Assembly: GCF_009601685.2 (NCBI RefSeq)
Contig: NZ_CP045701.2
Span: 5,022,001-5,086,000, forward strand
DNA: 64,000 nucleotides
Reading direction: 5' to 3'
Source: Pseudomonas brassicacearum
GTDB taxonomy: Bacteria; Pseudomonadota; Gammaproteobacteria; Pseudomonadales; Pseudomonadaceae
Part shown: positions 53,825 to 59,032 of the stretch, in pieces
How the letters are laid out: each line of letters opens with the position of its first letter
How positions within the stretch are numbered: position 1 is the stretch's first letter
The notes under the pieces: generated by a model
Told to the model about the DNA's origin: nothing
Database searches by the model: none
Seen by the model: the letters and a program-made list of their open reading frames with translations, nothing else
Program-made: the position numbers and the translations under genes

Positions 53825-55243
53825 TTACTTGGTGGCAGCCGCCACAGCCAATTCATGCCGGGCACTGCGCTTGTTCTTGATCCAATAGCACACAGCCATG
53901 AACACCACCCACACCGGAATCGCATAGACCGATATCTGGATGCCGGGAATCAACAACATCACGCCCAGGATGAACACCACGAACGCCAGGCAGATGTAGT
54001 TGCCGTACGGGTACCACAGCGCCTTGAACAGCGGCGTCTGGCGGGTCTGGTTCATGTGCTGGCGGAACTTGAAGTGCGAGTAGCTGATCATCGCCCAGTT
54101 GATCACCAGGGTCGCGACCACCAGCGACATCAGCAACTCCAGCGCATGCTGCGGGACCAGGTAGTTCAACAATACCGCCACCAGCGTGACCGCCGCCGAC
54201 GCAAGGATCGAACGCACCGGCACGCCGCGCTTGTCGATCTTGGACAAGGCCTTGGGCGCATCGCCCTGCTCGGCCATGCCCAGCAACATGCGGCTGTTGC
54301 AGTAGGTGCCACTGTTGTACACCGACAGCGCGGCGGTCAGCACCACGAAGTTGAGGATATGCGCCGCGGTGTTGCTGCCCAGCATCGAGAACACCTGCAC
54401 GAACGGGCTGCCGCTGTAGGCATCGCCGGAAGCGTTGAGCGTGGTCAGCAGGCTGTCCCAAGGGGTCAGGGACAACAGCACCACGAGCGCGCCGATGTAG
54501 AAAATCAGGATCCGGTAGATCACCTGGTTGATGGCCTTGGGGATCACGGTTTTCGGTTTGTCAGCCTCGGCGGCGGTGAAACCGAGCATTTCCAGGCCAC
54601 CGAAGGAAAACATGATGATCGCCATGGCCATCACCAGGCCACTCACGCCGTTGGGGAAGAATCCACCGTGGGCCCACAGGTTCGTCACCGAAGCTTGCGG
54701 ACCACCATTGCCGCTGACCAGCAGATAGCTGCCCAGGGCAATCATGCCGACAATCGCCACGACCTTGATGATCGCGAACCAGAACTCGGCCTCGCCGAAG
54801 ACTTTGACGTTGGCCAGGTTGATGGCGTTGATCAGCACGAAAAACGCTGCCGCCGAAACCCAGGTCGGGATGTCCGGCGCCCAGTAGTGGATGTACTTGC
54901 CAACCGCAGTCAGCTCGGACATGCCCACCAGGATGTAGAGAATCCAGCAGTTCCAACCCGACAGGAAGCCGGCGAAACCGCCCCAGTACTTATGGGCAAA
55001 GTGGCTGAACGAACCGGCCACCGGCTCTTCGACGATCATTTCGCCCAACTGGCGCATGATCATGAAGGCGATGAAGCCGCAGATGGCATAGCCCAGGATC
55101 ATCGACGGGCCAGCTGATTTCAGCACCCCCGCCGAGCCAAGGAACAGGCCGGTGCCGATCGCGCCACCGAGGGCGATCAGTTGAATGTGGCGATTTTTCA
55201 GGCCGCGTTTCAGCTCGCCCGAATGCGAGTTTTGTCCACTCAT
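53825..55243 (-). CDS. Amino-acid permease of the APC family (AroP/LysP-type)
   Basis: The 472-residue transporter has 12 hydrophobic helices and the APC signatures LKNRHIQLIALGGAIGTGLFLGSAGVLKSAGP and AFMIMRQLGEMIVEEPVAGSFSHFAHKYWGGFAGFLSGWNCW. The blocks FSFGGLEMLGFTAAEADKPKTVIPKAINQVIYRI and NSGTYCNSRMLLGMAEQGDAPK place it with aromatic or branched amino-acid/proton symporters such as AroP. The exact substrate is not resolvable. ATG 55243 is chosen over one six codons upstream. It ends at a terminator with a REP beyond. Confidence 0.88.
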   Translation of the reverse strand: MSGQNSHSGELKRGLKNRHIQLIALGGAIGTGLFLGSAGVLKSAGPSMILGYAICGFIAFMIMRQLGEMIVEEPVAGSFSHFAHKYWGGFAGFLSGWNCWILYILVGMSELTAVGKYIHYWAPDIPTWVSAAAFFVLINAINLANVKVFGEAEFWFAIIKVVAIVGMIALGSYLLVSGNGGPQASVTNLWAHGGFFPNGVSGLVMAMAIIMFSFGGLEMLGFTAAEADKPKTVIPKAINQVIYRILIFYIGALVVLLSLTPWDSLLTTLNASGDAYSGSPFVQVFSMLGSNTAAHILNFVVLTAALSVYNSGTYCNSRMLLGMAEQGDAPKALSKIDKRGVPVRSILASAAVTLVAVLLNYLVPQHALELLMSLVVATLVINWAMISYSHFKFRQHMNQTRQTPLFKALWYPYGNYICLAFVVFILGVMLLIPGIQISVYAIPVWVVFMAVCYWIKNKRSARHELAVAAATK

Positions 55244-56181
55244 GAAAAGGGTCTCACGCAAGGTTTGATGATGTTCGTTAGACGTTGCCGCTCGAATCGG
55301 ATCTCAAGCAGCGCCGATCAAACCCCAGCGCAGGCACCAGGAATTCAGCGTTTTTACAACGGTCATGCGTCACCTGTTTGTTTTTATCTGTGACGAAATC
55401 GAACCCGACACGCTTGTGGCGTGGCGGAGTGAACAAGGCGGATAACCTTGAAAGTGCGTGGGTACGCGAAGGGTCACAGTAAAACGCGGCGCATTGTACA
55501 CCGCTGCCCCCCTGCTGCCAGACACCACCGGATCAGCGTGCCCTTTGCCGGGATTGCCTGTGTCCGCCCAGACCATGCGCGGCGGCTGCAAAAATATGTC
55601 CAGGCCCTTGCGAGCCCTCGATGGGTGTAGCGCGAAAAACGCCACGACGGGGGGAATGGAACTGAGCTGCGGCGTTCATTGCGCCTCCTTTTTGTTATTC
55701 ACCTGCACGACAGGCATGGGGCGCATCTCACCCTTCTGGTCGATTGGAAACAAGCGGGGCAGAGCCTTGGAAAGCCCGCCTGGGCAGGCTTCGCGGAAGC
55801 TTTTCCTTACATCCCGGAGGAACCGGGTTTGCGGCCATCTCGACGGGCATTTTTCGTCAGCATTTCTTTACAAGCCGTAACGCAGAGTTGCCATGCAGCC
55901 ATCTTTTGCGGATTGACTGCAAATTGACGGTAGGTAGCTACCTATTTAAAAAAACACCCAGGCGGCTGTTTTTGAATGGGTAATGGTGTCGCTGAAAATG
56001 GAACAAAAAGTTCAAACAAAAAAAACAAAATTATTTTTTTGCAATCCAAAAAACCCTCGACTAGGTTTTCATCGACTTGCCAAGGCATCGTGCCGACAAG
56101 TTCTGCGGTGCCGTCGCCGGCCTGTTTGCATTCGCCGAATCGAGCCGCAACTTTCCGTAAAAGTCATCTAGGAGATTCACT
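55244..56181. other. Long intergenic region between permease and peptide gene
   Basis: These 938 bp have no convincing gene; frames at 55458-55880 and 55679-55927 lack domains and good start signals. The left part should hold the permease promoter. The right part is very AT-rich (about 55940-56060) and has a palindrome-centred promoter candidate, 55924-55952. Confidence 0.5.
55924..55952 (+). promoter_or_regulatory. Promoter candidate with embedded palindrome
   Basis: TTGACG (55924-55929) and TAAAAA (55947-55952) are 17 bp apart. The spacer is almost entirely the 14-bp perfect palindrome TAGGTAGCTACCTA (55931-55944), which suits a repressor. The start of the peptide gene is 230 bp downstream. 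Confidence 0.4.
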
Positions 56182-56319
56182 ATGCAAGCACTGGACAAAG
56201 ACTTGGAAACCGAACTGCAACTGGACGAATGGTTTGAAGCCCCAACCCATGAAGCCGCCGTTGAAATGATGCAGGCCGACGCCGTCGTTCCATTCGGCAC
56301 GGCGATGTGGCCTCTGTAG
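56182..56319 (+). CDS. 45-residue acidic peptide, RiPP-precursor-like
   Basis: AGGAG with good spacing precedes ATG 56182 (CTAGGAGATTCACTATG). The first 34 residues are acidic and helical (MQALDKDLETELQLDEWFEA ... EAAVEMMQADA), like a leader. The last 11 residues, VVPFGTAMWPL, are hydrophobic and aromatic with two prolines, like a core. It has no signal peptide or Cys. A GGCGGAG/CTCCGCC hairpin (56329-56359) follows, then an M29-like gene 92 bp after the stop. I know no named family for it. It could be a modified-peptide precursor, or a small scaffold or inhibitor of the adjacent protein. Confidence 0.6.
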   Translation: MQALDKDLETELQLDEWFEAPTHEAAVEMMQADAVVPFGTAMWPL

Positions 56320-56328
56320 GCACTGCCC

Positions 56329-56359
56329 GGCGGAGGCGATCCGGCCGGTCGACTCCGCC
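56329..56359 (+). terminator. Hairpin between peptide and M29-like gene (possible attenuator)
   Basis: GGCGGAG (56329-56335) pairs with CTCCGCC (56353-56359) over a 17-nt loop that contains its own GGCCGG. There is no T run, so partial termination or mRNA processing between the two genes is more likely than full termination. Confidence 0.4.
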
Positions 56360-56411
56360 ACTCATGCCGGTTGTCAGGGACGTTTAATGAACTTGTCAGG
56401 GAAGAATAAGC

Positions 56412-57377
56412 ATGGACACACAACGAGCCATCTCACATTTCCTTTACTACCTCGAACACCATCCCGCCCTGGCCGGCATCCAGCCCGCCAAGGTGTTGCT
56501 CGGCCATACCGCTGACTACGAAGCGCTGACCGGCGCCATTGCCGAACAGGCGGGCAGCGGCTCGCCCTTCCGGTTCAGCGCCATGCGCCTGGACCTTGAA
56601 CCCACGGAACGCCTGTCCAAGGCCATTGCCGACAGCGATCTGTATATTTTCTTCTACGACTCTTCCACCCTGCCCAACCCGCGCCCCGACGGCCCGGACT
56701 TTGTCCGCGCACTGCAAGGCGTGATGGCTGACAACTGGAAGAAATCGCTGCTGTTCAAGGACTACGGCGACTACTTCTACGACACCTTCAGCGTGATTCC
56801 CCAGCGTATCGCCGGGCTCAACAGTCACCTGATCCGGCGCATGTCCCAGGCGACGACCCTGAGTTACCAGGATGACCATGGTTCATATTTCGACACCGCC
56901 CTGGGCAGCGTGAAGAAATGGACCGACATCAACGGCCTCGGCAACTACGACCTGGCCCCCGGTGAAATCGCCACCCACAGCGACACCATCAATGGCCGGG
57001 TGAATTTCGTCGGCACCTTCCTGAGCACCATCCCGTTCGCGCGCAAATACGGCGTGCTGCAATCGCCGCTGGAACTGTGGATCGAAGACTCTACCATCCA
57101 GAAAATCGCCACCGACGTGCCGGGCCTGGAACACGATTTCAACAAATACCTGGACGCCAACCCGTCCAACCGCCGCATCGAGGAACTGGGGATTGGCACC
57201 AACGAAGGGGTCAAGAGCCTGTACGCCCGCAATGCCGGTTTCGAGGAGCGCCATTGCGGCCTGCACCTGGGGCTCGGCGGCGGGGCCAAGGGCAGCCATC
57301 ACCTGGATCTGATTTTCGAGAAAGGGGTGTTGGCGCTGGATAATGAGCCGATGTTCGATGGGCGGTTTGTGCTTTAG
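56412..57377 (+). CDS. M29 aminopeptidase-like protein
   Basis: The 321-residue protein resembles the thermophilic M29 metallo-aminopeptidases at its C-terminus: ELGIGTNEG (E258), FEERHCGLHLGLGGG (E278/E279, H285) and GSHHLDLIF (H297, D299). These fit the two-metal ligand set. The segment between H285 and H297 is shorter than in M29 and lacks the catalytic Tyr, so activity may differ. The N-terminal 200 residues (YYLEHHPALAGIQPAKVLLGHTADYEALTGAIAEQ...VPQRIAGLNSHLIRRMSQATTLSYQDDHGSYFDTAL) fit the family's other domain. It follows the 45-residue peptide gene in the same direction and may process or modify that peptide. Confidence 0.7.
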   Translation: MDTQRAISHFLYYLEHHPALAGIQPAKVLLGHTADYEALTGAIAEQAGSGSPFRFSAMRLDLEPTERLSKAIADSDLYIFFYDSSTLPNPRPDGPDFVRALQGVMADNWKKSLLFKDYGDYFYDTFSVIPQRIAGLNSHLIRRMSQATTLSYQDDHGSYFDTALGSVKKWTDINGLGNYDLAPGEIATHSDTINGRVNFVGTFLSTIPFARKYGVLQSPLELWIEDSTIQKIATDVPGLEHDFNKYLDANPSNRRIEELGIGTNEGVKSLYARNAGFEERHCGLHLGLGGGAKGSHHLDLIFEKGVLALDNEPMFDGRFVL

Positions 57378-57409
57378 GGGCAACCTGAGGGGAGGTGGTG
57401 AGCCTGCTG

Positions 57410-57513
57410 GCCTCTTCGCGAGCAAGCCCGCTCCCACACTGGATCGCCAGTGATCACAAATGCTATGCCCACTGAAGGTCGAATGTGGGAGCGGGCTTGC
57501 TCGCGAAGGCGGA
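57410..57513. repeat. REPIN (inverted REP pair)
   Basis: CCTCTTCGCGAGCAAGCCCG with GCTCCCACA on the left and TGTGGGAGCGGGCTTGCTCG with CGAAGGCGG on the right are inverted REP copies about 100 bp apart. Confidence 0.82.
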
Positions 57514-57544
57514 CTCACCTGCGCCCCATCACTAAAGCCAGCTC

Positions 57545-57594: not shown

Positions 57595-58830
57595 TCACTC
57601 CGGCTTGCGACGCCCAAACCCCGGACGCTGACCCGAACCTGCCGGTGCACCACGGCGTTTACCCGATGGCGCATCGCGATCGGCCAGGACGATACCCGGG
57701 CGCTTTTTCGGCGCAGGCTTGGCCGGACGCTTGGTGTCGACCGGACGATCGGCGACTGGCGTACCGCGGCCAGCCGGAGCACCGCGCCCTTCACCCCGTT
57801 CAGTCCGACCGTTGGCCGGACGCGGCGAGCGTGGACCACGCTCGCCGTCCTGACGCGGGGCAGGCTTGCGGGCCGGGCGTTCGCCTTCGATCTGCGGCTC
57901 GCGCGAAGGGCGCGGACCAATCGGCGCGCCTTCGGCAGCCGGACGCAGCGTACGCACGCGCTCGGTCTTGCCCATCGGGCGCGAGGATTTACGCTGCATC
58001 CGCTCCAGCTTGTCCTTGCTCTTGGCGGTCATCTGCGGCATTGCCACCGGCTTGAGGCCCACTTCGGCCGCCAGGATGTCGACTTCGTACTGGCTCATTT
58101 CGCGCCAGCGGCCCATCGGCAGGTCGGAATTGAGAAACACCGGGCCGAAACGCACACGCTTGAGGCGGCTGACCACCAGCCCCTGGGATTCCCACAGGCG
58201 ACGTACTTCCCGGTTACGGCCTTCCATCACCACGCAGTGGTACCAGTGGTTGAAGCCTTCGCCACCCGGTGCCTGCTTGATGTCGGTGAAACGCGCCGGG
58301 CCGTCTTCCAGCACAACGCCGGCCTTGAGACGCTCGATCATCTCGTCGTCGACTTCGCCACGCACACGCACGGCGTATTCGCGGTCCATTTCGTAGGACG
58401 GGTGCATCAAGCGGTTGGCCAGTTCACCGTCGGTGGTGAACATCAGCAAACCGGTGGTGTTGATGTCCAGGCGACCGATGTTGATCCAGCGGCCTTCTTT
58501 GGGGCGCGGCATCTTGTCGAACACGGTCGGACGGCCTTCCGGGTCGTCACGGGTGCAGATCTCGCCGTCGGGCTTGTTGTACATGATCACGCGGCGCACG
58601 GTTTCGGCGGCCTCTTCGCGCTTGATCACCTTGCCATCGATGGTGATGGCATCGTGCATGTCGACACGCAGGCCCAAGGTGGCATCTTTGCCGTTGACCT
58701 TGATTCGGCCCTGGGTGATCCAGGCTTCTACATCGCGGCGCGAACCGACGCCGATACGGGCGAGGACTTTTTGCAGCTTCTCGCCTGCTGGGCCGATTTC
58801 CTGGCTGTCGTTCTGGTCTTGGTCTTTCAT
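57595..58830 (-). CDS. rluB: 23S rRNA pseudouridine synthase RluB
   Basis: The 411-residue enzyme makes pseudouridine 2605 in helix 93 of 23S rRNA. An S4-like RNA-binding domain (EKLQKVLARIGVGSRRDVEAWITQGRIKVNG) is followed by the RsuA-family catalytic core: YNKPDGEICTRDDPEGRPTVFDKMP, then the Asp nucleophile in INIGRLDINTTGLLMFTTDGELANRLMHPSYEMDREYAVRVRG. The last about 150 residues are Arg/Pro/Lys-rich low-complexity sequence (RPSREPQIEGERPARKPAPRQDGERGPRSPRPANGRTERGEGRGA). The start at 58830 has a perfect GGGAGG eight bases upstream. Confidence 0.95.
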   Translation of the reverse strand: MKDQDQNDSQEIGPAGEKLQKVLARIGVGSRRDVEAWITQGRIKVNGKDATLGLRVDMHDAITIDGKVIKREEAAETVRRVIMYNKPDGEICTRDDPEGRPTVFDKMPRPKEGRWINIGRLDINTTGLLMFTTDGELANRLMHPSYEMDREYAVRVRGEVDDEMIERLKAGVVLEDGPARFTDIKQAPGGEGFNHWYHCVVMEGRNREVRRLWESQGLVVSRLKRVRFGPVFLNSDLPMGRWREMSQYEVDILAAEVGLKPVAMPQMTAKSKDKLERMQRKSSRPMGKTERVRTLRPAAEGAPIGPRPSREPQIEGERPARKPAPRQDGERGPRSPRPANGRTERGEGRGAPAGRGTPVADRPVDTKRPAKPAPKKRPGIVLADRDAPSGKRRGAPAGSGQRPGFGRRKPE

Positions 58831-59032
58831 TCTGGGCACCTCCCGGTGTGGTCGAGCCAGGCTTGGCCTGACGCTTTGAAAACGGGTCTTCGACGAAGGG
58901 ATCGCCAAAGGGTCGCGAATCATACGCTCGTTGAGGCGATTGCGCATCAGAGACTAGCTGATCAACCAGCGCCCGACACTTTTTCCGCCGACCGGTGGCG
59001 CCCATCTACTTAATGTGAGCGCGGTGTATCAA

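Follow-up and report, generated by a model that had tools for sequence, protein, structure and literature searches.

A pair of adjacent genes in the 64 kb window (the whole stretch of Pseudomonas DNA analysed here) probably forms a minimal cassette of the RiPP type. The two genes encode a precursor-like peptide and a dedicated metalloprotein of the PF26231 (CgnB-like) family, with binding between the two and a product being predicted. This reading of a dedicated precursor-like peptide with an M29-derived partner is based on co-occurrence of the genes, selection on the peptide, a hairpin within the operon, and recurrence in other genera. An earlier note on this DNA had proposed a precursor and one enzyme, with no usual modifying enzymes beside them; the same evidence supports that arrangement, while we infer that the peptide is matured at all. 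In the manner of RiPP systems, a short precursor gene is conserved beside the gene of its partner.

Both genes are on the plus strand between a permease gene (53825-55261, minus strand) and rluB (57595-58947, minus strand), the flanking genes being named by eye. The first gene encodes a 45-residue peptide (MQALDKDLETELQLDEWFEAPTHEAAVEMMQADAVVPFGTAMWPL; 56182..56319), and the second encodes a 321-residue protein (56412..57377). The strong ribosome-binding site and the 92 bp gap described in the earlier note are both borne out: AGGAG stands immediately 5' of the peptide ATG, within a ribosome-binding region (56168..56181, plus strand) conserved in an alignment of 91 upstream sequences, and the two genes are 92 bp apart. 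In the window, the neighbours of the pair include no evident maturation enzyme, protease or exporter. Inspection by eye of open frames out to about 4 kb at most revealed no maturation-like gene beside the pair in the window, Piscirickettsia or Photorhabdus. The genome of origin (6.58 Mb, one contig) encodes a single copy of the partner protein, according to a search of this genome. An inverted pair of REP-like elements (GCGAGCAAGCCCGCTCCCACA; 57386-57529) lies between the cassette and rluB. Rfam gave five sub-threshold matches and none at the gathering score; the best overlaps this downstream inverted repeat, which leads to a spurious sub-threshold miRNA match.

The 45-codon frame is a real gene. 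The earlier note had named as refuting evidence a 45-codon frame that is unconserved beside a conserved neighbour, and this was not found: all 92 of 92 Pseudomonas loci encode the peptide upstream of the protein, 58-93 bp away from it. These loci comprise the best 80 of 242 relatives in public genomes and 12 further stretches from the genus; the peptides of L041 and L080, verified by eye, are included in the count. The C-terminal end, AVVPFGTAMWPL, is also conserved, as that note had suggested checking. These last 12 residues are identical in 72 of the 92 loci, and in the other 20 the last residue is changed, V is replaced by I, or P by A. The leader segment GTCATctAGGAGAtt is conserved in the 91-sequence alignment.

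The peptide is under strong purifying selection over residues 16-45. The dN/dS ratio is 0.29 for residues 1-15, 0.032 for residues 16-33 and 0.037 for residues 34-45 (89 sequences including the window, about 1,370-1,500 sampled pairs; four loci with a 44-residue peptide were dropped). For pairs with less than 90% protein identity the ratio is 0.088 for the whole peptide vs 0.131 for the protein. W17, T40 and W43 are invariant in 33 chosen and aligned family peptides. The core consensus VVPFGTA[ML]W is nearly fixed and shows little variation: P may be replaced by A, H or Q, F by V, G by A, and M by L, or by F in L129. The AlphaFold model of the peptide (pLDDT 69) contains helices at residues 14-19 and 21-33; it is weak and can serve as a hint only. 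Some automatic database names look misleading in this family: some 40-residue family peptides are called 'Mercuric reductase', and the partner is called 'leucyl aminopeptidase'.

The hairpin reported between the genes in the earlier note was confirmed as a covarying stem 3' of the peptide stop codon (56329..56359, plus strand; a 13 bp arrangement with a loop of 5), although the fold in the window alone is ordinary, the folding energy of the region being close to that of shuffled sequences (z -0.40 over 98 nt). Over 82 distinct sequences including the window, the first 55 nt of this region have a median z of -2.9, with one sequence above -0.5. At least 9 pairs form in the 13-5-13 arrangement in 88 of 93 sequences, counting the window. 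The remaining five form 8 pairs in this frame, and in four of them an 11 bp stem closes a loop of 4. The covariation count omitted the five sequences that fall short of 9 pairs in the fixed frame. Over 47 distinct sequences it gave 575 paired cells (94.1%), vs 454 on average and 474 at most after shuffling; sliding one arm lowers the number to 166-224. Sequences were placed by best pairing, which is a bias toward the stem, but the varied arms with compensating changes are independent of the placement. Other hairpins occupy the same place in three Burkholderia loci and in Piscirickettsia (z from -2.1 to -3.2), the Piscirickettsia one being followed by a run of T. We infer that the hairpin is a leaky terminator or 3' stabiliser. 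The peptide and protein genes are probably co-transcribed, with the hairpin probably keeping the peptide message in excess.

As for the palindromic promoter candidate of the earlier note, the palindrome TAGGTAGCTACCTA (55931..55944) is real, but a perfect copy is present in just 27 of 92 loci. It was therefore rejected as a general operator; it is a possible operator in part of the genus. The block TTGCAA-N17-TAGGTT (56039..56067, plus strand) is better conserved and is a candidate promoter. A consensus scan upstream of the peptide returned no sigma-70 site, and this block was not among its results.

Within Pseudomonas, the protein was found in 72 of 199 sampled genomes and the peptide in the same 72, which answers the co-occurrence check proposed in the earlier note. 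The permease gene adjoins the cassette in 78 of 80 loci and rluB in 75 of 80, the misses being due to contig ends except in L017, which has groEL instead. Among the 12 further genus stretches, the permease gene is present in 12 and rluB in 11. The locus is thus the same in nearly all Pseudomonas loci examined. Both flanking genes are also present in genomes without the cassette, where the site is empty: 397-834 bp separate them in six such genomes vs 1743-2254 bp in six measured carriers. For this comparison, 12 genomes lacking the cassette were searched with rluB, the permease being also readable in six, and six of 12 fetched carriers were measured. One Pseudomonas locus (L098:1101-4033) has two extra genes between the cassette and rluB, whose products are a TPR protein of 698 residues and a lipoprotein-like protein of 279 residues. 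Two carriers (G405 and G476) encode a second, distant relative of the protein elsewhere.

Outside Pseudomonas the pair occurs at other chromosomal sites, in 12 of 12 assessable loci; this count excludes L131, whose contig starts just upstream, and L136, whose contig ends just downstream. The pairs belong to Piscirickettsia (L088), Burkholderia (L090-L092, L125), Photorhabdus (L128-L130), two Xenorhabdus-like loci and two other Enterobacterales (L134, L135). In the Xenorhabdus-like loci (L132:7326-7442 and L133:7026-7142) the peptide is located about 250-280 bp downstream of the protein and has the core VVPVGTAMWP; L134 and L135 have the variant core AVIPFAT[AS]LWA. In addition, the longest contig of 13 of 56 peptide clusters has exactly the length of that of a protein cluster, which we take to mean that the pair is linked also in Vibrio, Chromobacterium, Aeromonas and Paraburkholderia. 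Over 21 pairs, the distances among peptides correlate with those among proteins (Mantel r 0.73, p 0.0002), as expected if both descend together.

Wider samples gave few matches. A draw from the class gave matches in 3 of 369 genomes (the genome of origin, Piscirickettsia and one broken copy), a draw from the phylum in 8 of 398 (five in Pseudomonas, one a distant relative), and a sample of one family in 9 of 392. Samples of 33 and 7 genomes from two orders gave no match, and a nucleotide-level search of E. coli with Photorhabdus DNA as query gave none either. The broken copy (L089:8363-8809 and upstream; gammaproteobacterium G027) consists of two pieces of the protein gene, one with stop codons, and no peptide was seen there.

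Two small linked genes found at different sites in different genera could also be a toxin-antitoxin or defence pair. We consider this very improbable, given that PADLOC gave no match, that the locus is constant in nearly all Pseudomonas loci, and that the protein matched nothing in 50,697 phage records. A Burkholderia relative was found in 3 of 72,556 plasmid records, all of them replicons of 3.2-3.5 Mb. A phage, plasmid or defence origin is unsupported; in viral contigs, 34 stretches fit a pattern and none of them encodes a relative.

The nearest named relatives of the partner protein are from P. kilonensis and P. brassicacearum (99% identity, among the best 80 of 242). The earlier note knew of no named family for the cassette. 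One does exist: full-length relatives with 74-79% identity carry the precomputed label PF26231, some of them under the name 'Crocagin biosynthetic protein CgnE/B', after the proteins described in PMC10070186. Through these names PF26231 can be equated with the crocagin CgnB/CgnE peptide-binding family. In this set of relatives, the two closest (97% and 88%) carry no PF26231 label, and our local Pfam copy returned this family neither for the window protein nor for five of five labelled relatives. This Pfam copy gave no family for the window protein even at E 10, and NCBIfam gave no match. A single-sequence search of the PDB found no significant relative; a profile search reached CgnB (6zsv) only at E 1.5, with the motif aligned. 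The predicted structure (pLDDT 94) matches the folds of CgnB/CgnE, M29 aminopeptidases and NicX, and the nearest solved fold is a dioxygenase, not CgnB, which counts against the RiPP-type reading.

The ligand list was taken from CgnB (PMC10070186), and ligands were paired by motif and spacing. E185, E258, E279, H285, H297 and D299 are invariant in 35 of 35 aligned sequences, as is E278; the earlier note had named all of these except E185. It had also held that the catalytic Tyr is missing, and this agrees with Ala292 at the H285+7 position, where aminopeptidase T has a tyrosine that we take to be the catalytic one. The protein is M29-like, with six metal ligands kept and the catalytic Tyr lost. 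It differs from the M29 aminopeptidases (AmpT 2ayi, PepS 4icq, AmpS 1zjc) in having no PF02073 match, Ala at the Tyr position and a shorter chain; the PF02073 (peptidase M29) profile matches nothing in the genome of origin. Identity with an M29 aminopeptidase was rejected on the absence of Pfam and NCBIfam matches and of Tyr at the expected position.

An M29-type fold, an intact dinuclear ligand set and a nearly fixed core would also suit a peptidase with sequence specificity, whose product would be a short peptide hormone from the C-terminus (VVPFGTAMWPL, for example) with no other modification. This is improbable in our view: the H+7 Tyr of aminopeptidase T is absent both here and, in the alignment, from CgnB, no exporter is evident beside the pair, and CgnB and CgnE showed no aminopeptidase activity (PMC10070186). 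NicX, a 2,5-dihydroxypyridine dioxygenase (7cn3), holds one Fe(II) via His265, Ser302, His318 and Asp320 and acts on a small molecule (PMC7910607); the match here is at the level of the fold.

The closest biochemical precedent for a RiPP-type cassette is crocagin. CgnB and CgnE bind the precursor CgnA and gave no product when CgnA was their only partner. The oxygenase CgnC builds the core with the help of both, and the authors infer that they recruit CgnA to CgnC (PMC10070186). CgnB keeps a dinuclear Zn site whose role was left unsettled in crocagin biochemistry (PMC10070186); CgnE has lost two metal ligands. Homologues of CgnB/CgnE are known from about 100 genomes, with the metal site intact in all single-copy cases (Adam et al. 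2023, PMC10070186). In contrast to crocagin, which has both CgnB and CgnE (PDB 6zsv, 6zsu), the present locus has one copy. The leader is acidic here and basic there, and the core is built around FGTA[ML]W rather than Ile-Tyr-Trp: the peptide does not end in X-Tyr-Trp but in FGTA[ML]W plus one or two residues. The conserved Trp near the C-terminus is shared with the crocagin core. No CgnC oxygenase, CgnD hydrolase, carbamoyltransferase or methyltransferase is found beside the cassette, unlike in the crocagin cluster.

Candidate precursors predicted with RiPPER have already been reported (PMC10070186) and may include the present peptide; the main text of that paper names neither Pseudomonas, Burkholderia nor Photorhabdus. 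Our literature search gave no paper on the pair among the matches listed, and 'FGTAMWP' and 'PF26231' are absent from the full texts searched. Both the protein family and the notion that it has a peptide partner are thus on record, and the literature listings show no cassette reduced to two genes whose core is nearly fixed.

In the RiPP-type cassette that we propose, the protein would recognise the peptide segment with W17 and TH..AVEMM, predicted with low confidence to be helical, and would hold the C-terminal core (consensus PFGTA[ML]W) at the metal pocket. The core would then be processed by the protein itself or passed to an enzyme encoded elsewhere. We lean modestly toward self-processing, since all aligned sequences keep the same metal ligands and no other candidate enzyme was seen in the window. 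That CgnB has no activity alone is a real argument for the hand-off.

Taken further, the hand-off would make the PF26231 protein a mere carrier like CgnB, delivering the peptide to an oxygenase or another enzyme encoded elsewhere, as inferred for CgnB/CgnE and CgnC (PMC10070186). We consider this somewhat unlikely, as six ligands invariant in 35 of 35 sequences exceed the need of a pure carrier, CgnE having lost two. Genes near some relatives speak for the RiPP-type reading in general, and those next to the L134 pair also for a carrier. In L134 the pair is followed by a gene for a 478-residue TPR protein weakly similar to glycosyltransferase family 9 (E 0.098, below the cut-off), and a 270-residue 2OG-Fe(II) oxygenase-like protein is also encoded there (E 5e-5, 24.6 bits vs a cut-off of 27); L135 has the TPR gene only, its product being 51% identical to that of L134. 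The two L134 genes recall crocagin-like clusters, in which oxygenase and glycosyltransferase genes also occur (PMC10070186). The 64 kb window contains no relative of the oxygenase-like or glycosyltransferase-like gene of L134. In L126, a distant relative of the protein from another class adjoins a gene similar to aKG-HExxH peptide beta-hydroxylases (39.9 bits vs a cut-off of 40). These domain matches, below curated cut-offs, weakly suggest that the wider protein family occurs in RiPP-like contexts.

Acetyltransferase-like (GNAT-like) genes, also consistent with a carrier, were seen by eye near the pair in 7 of 12 non-Pseudomonas loci, mostly on the opposite strand. Those of L132, L133 and L134 are of one kind (41% identity or more). 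Those of L090, L091 and L125 belong to another, more remote one (about 30% over 100 residues), and that of L092 is unrelated. Such genes are common, and these neighbours may be due to chance, although acetylation may play a part.

The peptide might instead be no precursor but a regulatory or structural small protein that serves the metalloprotein as an inhibitor, an activator or a stabilising subunit. Its near-invariance, the short bicistronic layout and the lack of an evident processing gene in the window agree with this, and co-inheritance fits equally well. The family link to a RiPP precursor-binding protein, the weakly matching modifying-enzyme-like genes beside some relatives, and a Trp conserved close to the C-terminus, a feature shared with the crocagin core, point the other way and make such a role quite unlikely in our opinion.

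Beta- and gammaproteobacteria share a nearly unchanged core. Under the RiPP-type reading, the product is therefore probably not a variable antimicrobial but a conserved signal or a cofactor-like molecule. Typical antimicrobial RiPPs differ from this cassette, in which the core hardly varies and neither an export gene nor an immunity gene is evident alongside; these features point to a conserved product. RiPPs of the PQQ and mycofactocin type have a fixed core, as expected for a cofactor vs an antibiotic, and the peptide here shares this property; unlike the present cassette, they depend on a set of linked enzymes, one of which is a radical SAM enzyme. The boldest version, which we regard as unlikely, is that the PF26231 protein alone matures the peptide, either as a NicX-like oxygenase at the core Trp or Thr or as a highly specific peptidase, to give one nearly invariant signal or cofactor in Pseudomonas, Burkholderia, Photorhabdus, Vibrio and others. 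If true, this would be among the smallest ribosomal-peptide pathways. Two genes may suffice, so the system is easy to test, and the cassette could reveal what a PF26231 protein does on its own, a point left open by crocagin biochemistry.

A distant subfamily of the protein, 376-397 residues long, is encoded in two Pseudomonas genomes and one genome of another class (L086:7850-9034, minus strand; L087:7501-8631, plus strand; L126:5969-7162, plus strand), and the peptide was not seen at these three loci, a point against the RiPP-type reading. These proteins carry Cys-rich tails (SCCGTNSKSHVSC, DCCGVMTC and DCCGLLR) and may be CgnB-like proteins with a built-in peptide tail. The L086 gene adjoins aldolase-, dehydrogenase- and cupin-like genes, named by eye.
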